DNA of 25,378 nucleotides from a virus, in the IMG/VR virus record IMGVR_UViG_3300021957_000274, positions 1 through 25,378 of that record; one strand, given 5' to 3'. Each line of letters starts with the position of its first letter. Within the stretch, counting starts at the first letter, position 1. Under the pieces are notes generated by a model. The model was not told where the DNA came from. It did no database searches and saw only the letters and a program-made list of their open reading frames with translations. This document shows positions 1,190-16,785 of the stretch, piece by piece. Made by a program: the position numbers and the translations under genes.

Positions 1190-1396
1190 ATGGACGTTGT
1201 AGATTTTCTATCAAGGTATCAAAAAACCTTGCAAACACGGGTAGATGACATTAGCATCTCCGTTACTAGCGGTAGTGCTTCCGACATGGAGCAGTATCGC
1301 GCGATGATAGGTGAGATTCAGGGGATCACCTACGCGCTTGATGAACTCAAATCCCTGCTGACAAAGGCTAACTATGACGACGCTTCTAGTACCTGA
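1190..1396 (+). CDS. Small hypothetical phage protein
   Basis: A 68-residue, mostly helical, acidic protein with no cysteine and no membrane segment. Its second half (around the YRAMIGEIQG motif, residues 37-46) reads as an amphipathic helix. The ATG follows a T7 run directly and has no Shine-Dalgarno sequence, which fits either a near-leaderless transcript from the promoter at 1148-1175 or initiation by another route. It overlaps the GroES-like gene by 23 nt, so it is probably the first gene of the capsid operon. I recognise the type as a short protein seen next to head genes in marine phages, but no function is known to me. Confidence 0.75.
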   Translation: MDVVDFLSRYQKTLQTRVDDISISVTSGSASDMEQYRAMIGEIQGITYALDELKSLLTKANYDDASST

Positions 1397-1805
1397 TCAT
1401 ATTCTCCGGCAGCAGCAAGCCAAGAAAAAAGCTGAAGAAGAAGCCTCCAAGAAACCCATAACAGAGCGAATTCCGCAGCCTACTGGCTGGCGGATTCTTG
1501 TCATGCCCTATCAGGGCAGGGCCAAGACTGAGGGTGGAGTGTACGTTCCCGATCAAGCCAAAGACCGTGAAGCACGAGCCACTGTTGTGGCATATGTGGT
1601 TCGTCTTGGGCCACTAGCCTATCAGGATCCGGACAAGTTTGGTCCTGATTGCAAGCCGTGGTGTCAAGAGGGCGACTGGGTTTGTATTGGTCGGTACGCC
1701 GGATCGCGCTTCCAGATTGAAGGTGGCGAGGTCCGTATAATCAATGACGACGAAGTCATTGCAACCATCATCGACCCTGATGATATCAAGACATACGGAG
1801 CCTAG
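1374..1805 (+). CDS. GroES-like co-chaperonin (Cpn10 family)
   Basis: A 143-residue protein. After a charged Lys/Glu-rich N-terminal extension (about residues 11-32), residues 37-135 follow the Cpn10 barrel: GWRILVMP (GroES 'R.lV.p' strand), then KTEGGVYVPDQAK (residues 51-63), matching the GroES mobile loop region 'kT.gGI.lPd.ak', then a VVAYV strand, EGDWVCIGRYAG (GroES 'GD.V.f.ky.G') and a C-terminal 'DDEVIATI' strand (GroES 'dila'). It would cap host GroEL and aid folding of the capsid protein, as gp31 does for T4. It lies directly before the scaffold and capsid genes. The N-terminal extension and a longer loop with two cysteines (93, 97) depart from the roughly 95-residue bacterial GroES. 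Family call strong; specificity for capsid folding inferred from position. Confidence 0.85.
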   Translation: MTTLLVPDHILRQQQAKKKAEEEASKKPITERIPQPTGWRILVMPYQGRAKTEGGVYVPDQAKDREARATVVAYVVRLGPLAYQDPDKFGPDCKPWCQEGDWVCIGRYAGSRFQIEGGEVRIINDDEVIATIIDPDDIKTYGA

Positions 1806-1806
1806 T

Positions 1807-2694
1807 ATGCAAAACAACCTTGCTGAGAAGGAAGAAGAACTGGAAATCGTCGCGGCTGACGAAGAAGAGCAGCCAGAAGATGTTTCACGTGAAACATCTG
1901 AAGACGCCCCGGCGGAGCAAGAAGCAAAACCGGATGAGTTAGAGCAATATTCGGAATCTGTTCAGCGACGTATTTCAAAACTGACAAACAGGTTTCGTGA
2001 AGAAGAGCGTCAGCGTCAGGCGGCTATCGAGTACGCCGAGGCGGTCAAGCAGCAAAATGACGAGCTTCGTGCCCGCATTGACAAGCTCGATCAGTCCTAT
2101 GTTGGTGAGTTTGGCAGTCGCGTAGAAGCAGATGCTGCCGCTGCCAAGGAAGCCTACCGCAAAGCCTATGAAGATGGCGATGCAGACGGCATGTTTGAGG
2201 CACAGCAGCGCATCAGTCGTATCGCTCTGGAGCAGGCTCGGTATGAAGAAGCCAAGCGCCGGAACGAGCAGCGGCAGGAGCAGCCTGCGGCTGATCCAGC
2301 GCCGCAGCAGCGGCAGGCTCAACAGGAGCAGGTCCAACAACCTGATCCAAAGGCTGAAGCATGGGCGTCGAAGAACGAATGGTTTGGCAACGATCAGACT
2401 ATGACATATGCCGCTTTCGGTATTCATCGGCAACTTATTGAAGACGAGGGGTTTGACCCATCTTCCGATGAGTATTATAGTGAACTTGACAAACGTGTTC
2501 GCACGGAGTTCCCGCATAAGTTTGCGGAAGCGAAGCGCGATACTGGACCCAGAGTCGCTTCTGCTGGGTCAACGGCGTCAAAGTCGTCGTCACCAAAGGG
2601 GCGCAGAACAGTCAAACTGACTCCATCGCAGATTGCGATTGCGAAGCGATTGAATGTTCCGCTCGAGGAATATGCCAAGTACGTGAAGGAGTAA
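1807..2694 (+). CDS. Capsid scaffold/assembly-like protein (carries parS in its coding sequence)
   Basis: The ATG at 1807 is preceded by GGAG at 1797-1800 with 6-nt spacing and follows the GroES-like stop, so I prefer it to the in-frame ATG at 1744. The 295-residue product is highly charged and probably elongated: an acidic disordered N-terminus (1-45), a long coiled-coil region (about 48-150, rich in Glu/Arg/Gln/Ala), a Gln/Pro-rich linker (160-185), and a basic C-terminus ending in a short predicted helix-turn-helix (LTPSQIAIAKRLNV). This is the architecture of phage scaffolds, where the basic C-terminal helix binds capsid protein. Position two genes before the decoration and capsid genes agrees. 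Codons 25-31 contain the parS palindrome. The scaffold role is inferred. Confidence 0.75.
   Translation: MQNNLAEKEEELEIVAADEEEQPEDVSRETSEDAPAEQEAKPDELEQYSESVQRRISKLTNRFREEERQRQAAIEYAEAVKQQNDELRARIDKLDQSYVGEFGSRVEADAAAAKEAYRKAYEDGDADGMFEAQQRISRIALEQARYEEAKRRNEQRQEQPAADPAPQQRQAQQEQVQQPDPKAEAWASKNEWFGNDQTMTYAAFGIHRQLIEDEGFDPSSDEYYSELDKRVRTEFPHKFAEAKRDTGPRVASAGSTASKSSSPKGRRTVKLTPSQIAIAKRLNVPLEEYAKYVKE
1878..1899. promoter_or_regulatory. Perfect parS-like ParB-binding palindrome
   Basis: TGTTTCACGTGAAACA at 1881-1896 is the 16-bp consensus of bacterial chromosomal parS, the loading site for the ParB CTPase clamp. The symmetry extends three more bases on each side (AGA...TCT), giving a perfect 22-bp palindrome. 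It lies in codons 25-31 (Asp-Val-Ser-Arg-Glu-Thr-Ser) of the scaffold-like gene, in its acidic disordered N-terminus. I found no second copy in the window and no parA or parB gene here. Chance occurrence of a given 16-mer in 25 kb is about 6 in a million. Binding by host ParB is inferred. Confidence 0.75.
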
Positions 2695-16326: not shown

Positions 16327-16785
16327 ATGGCATACATCGGTAAATCCCCAGAGTTCGGTGTCCGCAACCGCTTTGTGTATCAAGCTACTGCTGGTCAGAC
16401 TAGCTTTAGCGGATCTGATTCCGATTCGTTAGTGCTGACATACTCCGACAGCATGTACATGGACGTGTACCAGAACGGTGTTCTTTTGAAGCCTGGTACG
16501 GACTACACAGCCACGACAGGTACGACAGTTGTGTTGGTTACGGGTGCGTCCCTGAACGATGTTGTCGAGATGGTGGTGTACGATGCGTTCTCCGTCGCCG
16601 ACAGCTACACCAAATCCGAATCCGACACACGCTACCCGTTCAAGGGTAATGACAGCATCATCCGCCTCAACGGCCAGACCATCGACGCAGACATCACTAT
16701 CGACAGTGACGAGAATGGTGTGTCGGCTGGGCCGATTACACAGAATGCCACCGTCACTGTTAATGGATATTGGAGCATCGTATGA
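16327..16785 (+). CDS. Tail-fibre protein, AYIGKSP type
   Basis: A 152-residue protein starting MAYIGKSPEFGVRNRFVYQA, followed by a 'MYMDVYQNGVLLKPGTDYTA' strand block (about 43-62) and DVVEMVVYDAFSVADSYTKS (about 79-98). This 'YIGKSP ... V..NG..L..G.DY ... VE...YD.FSVADS' order is common in cyanophage and pelagiphage fibres. The C-terminus (DADITIDSDENGVSAGPIT) is a short beta repeat. A small beta module related to the one at 12327 is present. Overlaps the next gene by ATGA. Probable fibre base or shaft piece. Confidence 0.8.
   Translation: MAYIGKSPEFGVRNRFVYQATAGQTSFSGSDSDSLVLTYSDSMYMDVYQNGVLLKPGTDYTATTGTTVVLVTGASLNDVVEMVVYDAFSVADSYTKSESDTRYPFKGNDSIIRLNGQTIDADITIDSDENGVSAGPITQNATVTVNGYWSIV

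Follow-up and report, generated by a model that had tools for sequence, protein, structure and literature searches.

A host-type parS palindrome in HTVC023P-type marine phages and its probable use of host ParB

The window analysed here is a linear IMG/VR fragment of 25,378 b, less than half of the full genome size in its phage family, and it carries an exact bacterial chromosomal parS inside a phage gene. The palindrome is probably a functional parS of the host type on a phage without ParB, which would load the ParB of the host onto phage DNA. The data are best explained by recruitment of host ParB: parS is of the host type, does not occur at random and has been retained, and ParB is absent from the family phages that could be searched. 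The reading builds on sequence-level results: exact parS identity, enrichment of the variants that ParB can read, conservation, no phage ParB or ParA, and the same site beside alphaproteobacterial parAB. The binding of host ParB to the phage parS is predicted from them.

The palindrome and the scaffold-like gene

The features of the window are as follows.

1374..1805, + strand: GroES-like co-chaperonin, the upstream neighbour of the scaffold-like gene
1807..2694, + strand: scaffold-like gene, 295 aa, acidic, phrog_28737 (function unknown), with VSRET encoded by parS
1878..1899, no strand: perfect 22-bp palindrome AGATGTTTCACGTGAAACATCT enclosing parS
1881..1896, no strand: parS TGTTTCACGTGAAACA, an exact match to the published consensus parS (PMC7383237)
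3821..4735, + strand: major capsid protein, which groups the phage with HTVC023P, HTVC027P and CRP-901

An earlier note on this DNA had described an exact chromosomal parS in a perfect 22-bp palindrome, and both were confirmed without mismatch. The consensus parS and a 20-bp DNA co-crystallised with the ParB DNA-binding domain have been published (PMC7383237); positions 1879-1898 of the window are identical to this 20-mer letter for letter. The parS is the sole match in the window even when 3 mismatches are allowed, and 0.13 matches at up to 3 mismatches are expected in the shuffled window. From the base composition (GC 0.52), about 5e-6 exact copies of the 16-mer are expected in 25 kb, in agreement with the value of about 6e-6 given earlier. 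The binding site of Noc (TATTTCCCGGGAAATA-type) was not matched, and the window has the parS bases at the positions that separate parS from this site. No tRNA was found in the window.

The parS is in frame with the gene for the acidic 295-aa protein, close to the N-terminus, and its codons are GTT TCA CGT GAA ACA; the gene stands between the GroES-like gene and that of the major capsid protein. The placement described in the earlier note is therefore correct, with the reservation that the name scaffold is taken from gene position alone. The phage is related to HTVC023P, HTVC027P and the Roseobacter phage CRP-901, whose genomes are 52-61 kb.

Enrichment, placement and retention of parS in phages

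IMG/VR was searched for the exact TGTTTCACGTGAAACA, for the other classic symmetric parS TGTTCCACGTGGAACA, and for two control palindromes. Each of the two parS forms was found in at least 120 stretches; whereas the control TGTTTGACGTCAAACA, the parS palindrome with two bases exchanged, occurred in 1 stretch, and the control TGTTACACGTGTAACA, a symmetric change to the TTAC form, occurred in 4 stretches on 3 contigs. Thus the enrichment in IMG/VR concerns the two symmetric sequences used by ParB and does not extend to their neighbours. Members of the window's family, defined by the terminase large subunit TerL, portal, MCP, scaffold or GroES shared at 45% identity or more, accounted for between roughly a quarter and a third of the matches listed (35/120 for TGTTTCACGTGAAACA; 27/119 readable loci for TGTTCCACGTGGAACA). 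A ParB domain above the cut-off was present in 3 of the 120 listed records with TGTTTCACGTGAAACA and in 1 of the 50 records checked for the TGTTCCACGTGGAACA form, and part of the IMG/VR matches will be prophage or host sequence. Separately, the viral contig IMGVR_UViG_3300037423_000235 (L238, L241) contains about 8 copies of TGTTACACGTGTAACA, which is nearly absent elsewhere; it may come from a phage that has a diverged ParB and a centromere of its own.

In the HTVC023P-type family, parS was found in at least seven non-homologous placements, of which the scaffold-gene position is not the main one. The commonest placement is 60-175 bp upstream of TerL, at the head of the packaging operon (L007, L019, L027, L029, L042, L066, L083, L088, L093, L097, L101, L111, L119 and L120). 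Other sites are located near the N-terminus of the scaffold-like gene (the window, L122, L123 and L212-L221), at a different codon position of this gene (L008), between TerL and portal (L110, L121 and G106), between portal and GroES (L032 and L059), and before a small basic gene (L057, L187 and L188). G150 has an exact parS between other genes, although it belongs to a clade without the TerL-upstream parS. Most family genomes contain a single, intact parS, and the favoured region is the packaging/head half. The cultured SAR11 phage HTVC027P carries an intergenic 15/16 version of parS, CGTTTCACGTGAAACA, at 16412, and the more distantly related Alcaligenes phage QDWS535 carries TGTTCCACGTGGAACA. 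No parS was detected at up to 2 or up to 3 mismatches in HTVC023P, CRP-901/902, 023Pt_psg01, G008, G018 and G155. This patchy distribution suggests that parS is dispensable in some lineages.

Two apparent cases of movement were set aside. Judged by their flanks, the sites at -327, -381 and -1058 from TerL lie in the intergenic block that holds the near-TerL sites, which an inserted gene separates from TerL; they are therefore not counted as separate placements. A relocation from TerL to the scaffold gene in the window's clade is not claimed, as the longest relative (G001) starts inside TerL. A check for linkage of parS to a replication origin gave a cumulative GC skew running in one direction throughout the contigs, which showed no origin.

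Several arrangements with more than one palindrome were also observed. In three distant relatives, 3-5 exact parS are grouped near TerL in a span of about 1 kb (L017:2657-3444, L044:10535-11462 and L053:240-961); these clusters resemble a chromosomal parS cluster, and the ParB domain is absent from those records. Upstream of TerL in L331, L327 and L338, the two parS forms adjoin in a tandem of TGTTCCACGTGGAACA, 8 bp and TGTTTCACGTGAAACA. Two exact parS with repeated flanks lie 60 bp apart in a 437-aa reading frame (L043:6704 and 6764). A 14-bp palindrome, CATCATTAATGATG, occurs in eight family contigs (L169, L172, L176, L180, L182, L184, L185 and L186).

Retention of the site was examined in the best 80 TerL relatives of one family member, a sample taken irrespective of parS. 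In the 250 bp preceding TerL, the exact 16-mer was present in 52/80 loci, which is not a family-wide rate because the TerL query itself came from a parS carrier; one locus had one mismatch, none had 2-4 mismatches, and 27 had five or more. None of 200 shuffled palindromes of equal composition was found in the same 80 regions. Seven of the 27 loci lacking the near-TerL site have an exact parS at a greater distance within the intergenic block, separated from TerL by an inserted gene. After dereplication, parS was present in 24 of 34 TerL clusters. Comparison of the cluster representatives showed that parS is 99% identical, and the 60 bp on each side are 67-72% identical. In the parS-free clade, a compact block is cleanly deleted and the surrounding intergenic sequence is intact. 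The perfect-or-absent pattern at the TerL-upstream loci is that of a selected site, and in these TerL-selected loci parS has been evolutionarily retained as a DNA element of the family. Almost every family member, even where parS has been lost, has another conserved element, TAGGGGCCCC or TAGGGGTCCC, directly before the TerL start codon (e.g. L281); it is perhaps a cos/pac or translation element.

For the scaffold-gene site, fewer relatives are informative. Among the unselected sequences, parS is exact in L122 and keeps 15/16 bases in L123, where a change of GAT to GAG alters the outer T; the parS codons are missing altogether from L124-L126, which are nearly as similar to the window. Synonymous erosion of the palindrome, which the earlier note had named as evidence against its proposal, was thus not seen in these relatives. 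Between the window and L122, the five parS codons are unchanged and synonymous differences occur in 85 of 292 codons; 16 other invariant five-codon windows lie in the 3' part of the gene. Five of the 80 scaffold-selected contigs, which are fragments, carry parS, the fifth with one mismatch. L212-L221 were retrieved by a pattern containing GTTTCACGTGAAACA, and their invariance is therefore partly due to selection of the sequences and is not used as proof. Taken alone, retention in the window's clade is only suggestive, with few unselected sequences; the test gains weight from the family evidence.

Partition genes, host sites and explanations

No ParB domain (PF02195) was found in 25 long family records, no ParA domain (PF13614) in 26 records, and no tyrosine integrase (PF00589) in 18 long family records; the window record, a fragment, also had none of the three. 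The earlier statement that no parA or parB is visible was supported, and a hidden phage ParB is rejected for the family by the PF02195 and PF13614 searches. A lysogenic or plasmid lifestyle was rejected on the 18 long records without a PF00589 match, a search that covered tyrosine integrases. The earlier note had offered two readings, recruitment or titration of host ParB and a plasmid-like phage with ParB elsewhere. The first agrees with a host-type, non-random and retained site in phages where no ParB was found; the second is not supported by the domain searches.

In each of three alphaproteobacterial MAGs (SAR116, Maricaulis and Rhodobacteraceae), two exact parS about 2 kb apart flank gidA, followed by gidB and parAB. 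In the Maricaulis and Rhodobacteraceae MAGs, gidB encodes the second parS as VSRET, with ParB just downstream. The phage gene also reads parS as VSRET, and a copy of the host gidB site was considered; it was rejected because no flank homology was found. As the phage flanks are unrelated to those of host parS, copying from the host is not evident. Capsid relatives of the window's phage were found in MAGs of mixed taxa and are probably stray phage contigs in the bins.

The proposed recruitment might proceed as follows. When phage DNA is in the cell, host chromosomal ParB would bind parS, close as a CTP clamp and slide onto the phage DNA. The clamps may then bring in SMC or ParA, by which phage genomes would be organised, positioned or spread. 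A long-range action of parS, rather than an operator of one gene, is most likely, since parS is usually single and intact but accepted at many positions of the packaging/head half. Late-gene silencing stays in play because parS is found most often where the packaging operon starts, and titration of host ParB is possible; sequence cannot separate positioning or compaction, silencing and titration. The wider proposal is that a lytic marine phage lineage has repeatedly evolved, at non-homologous positions, host-type centromeres that capture host ParB, and with it SMC or ParA, for the organisation or positioning of viral DNA, a hijacking in cis only. We regard the chances of this as evenly balanced.

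In a decoy model, replicated phage genomes with parS would draw ParB off the host chromosome by titration, so that segregation or the cell cycle is disturbed. Apart from the site, only a high copy number of the phage is required, and the clusters of 3-5 sites in the distant relatives L017, L044 and L053 would suit it. However, a decoy should profit from more sites, whereas most family genomes have one, and there is no evident reason why it should prefer the packaging/head half; it is rather unlikely as the main explanation.

P1 ParB and KorB silence nearby genes. The phage parS could similarly act as a timing switch, where ParB spreading from it silences the late (packaging/head) operon early, and replication then dilutes ParB and lifts the silencing. 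The commonest site, 70-160 bp upstream of TerL, is well placed for this; but the parS of the window is embedded deep within the scaffold-like gene and has no intergenic space around it, a search near the scaffold-gene and TerL-upstream sites gave no convincing promoter, and one clade has lost the parS block without other change. We consider such a switch unlikely.

An operator for a phage-encoded DNA-binding protein that reads the same sequence by coincidence is very improbable. Small unknown proteins are abundant in the family genomes; however, the half-site forms TTTC and TTCC are enriched and the equally symmetric TTAC is not, which is the tolerance of ParB, and the placements are too varied. 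A chance occurrence, or host DNA left over as a neutral remnant, which might be entertained for the window's clade alone, where the gene is otherwise ordinary and independent sequences are few, is scarcely credible against an expectation of about 5e-6, the at least 120 stretches against 1-4 for the controls, the bimodal perfect-or-absent pattern in loci not selected for parS, which contradicts it for the family, and flanks without homology to those of host parS.

Comparison with known systems

To our knowledge, ParB, SMC and ParA are not generally counted as phage host factors. A conserved host parS, in both forms readable by ParB, in a very abundant marine phage family makes the use, self-silencing or sabotage of host segregation machinery testable, and the two forms may be a clue to host range. 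A culture system exists, since the nearest isolate HTVC027P, which carries the 15/16 parS, grows on SAR11 HTCC1062.

The site matches the chromosomal parS of the alphaproteobacterial ParABS, to which Caulobacter ParB belongs. The 16-mer is the same, positions 1879-1898 equal the crystallised 20-mer, and the symmetric TTCC form is also used; the VSRET reading frame is common to the phage gene and the host gidB. Caulobacter ParB is loaded at parS and, with CTP, spreads from there (PMC7053999). The chromosomal sites differ in their setting; whereas the sites found here are on lytic-type phage genomes without parA or parB, usually as one copy in the packaging/head half.

Phages with centromeres are known. 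P1 and the RedRock-type mycobacteriophages are extrachromosomal prophages with their own ParABS, and the RedRock site consists of 8-bp repeats (PMC7157519). Their DNA likewise bears a centromere; however, they encode ParA and ParB and use different sites, whereas neither protein was found here and the site is that of the host. In E. coli with lambda-parS and CFP-ParB, ParB loads onto injected phage DNA bearing parS and forms foci (PMC13190303); that is an engineered reporter, whereas the present site is natural. A literature search, which did not extend to the Livny 2007 parS survey, revealed no report of a natural host-type parS in phages, only the engineered lambda-parS, self-encoded phage ParABS and SGI1.

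SGI1 carries copies of a plasmid-type (IncC) parS that exploit the ParB of another replicon, and both binding and stabilisation have been demonstrated (PMC10954446). Like the phage, it has only the cis site, without its own ParB, matching the parS of another replicon, which for the phage would be the host chromosome. SGI1 mimics a plasmid parS, whereas here a chromosomal parS is carried by a virus with no known maintenance phase. The parS mimicry of SGI1 is thus the closest in kind, and what is new here is that the target is the segregation system of the host chromosome and the carrier is a lytic-type virus.
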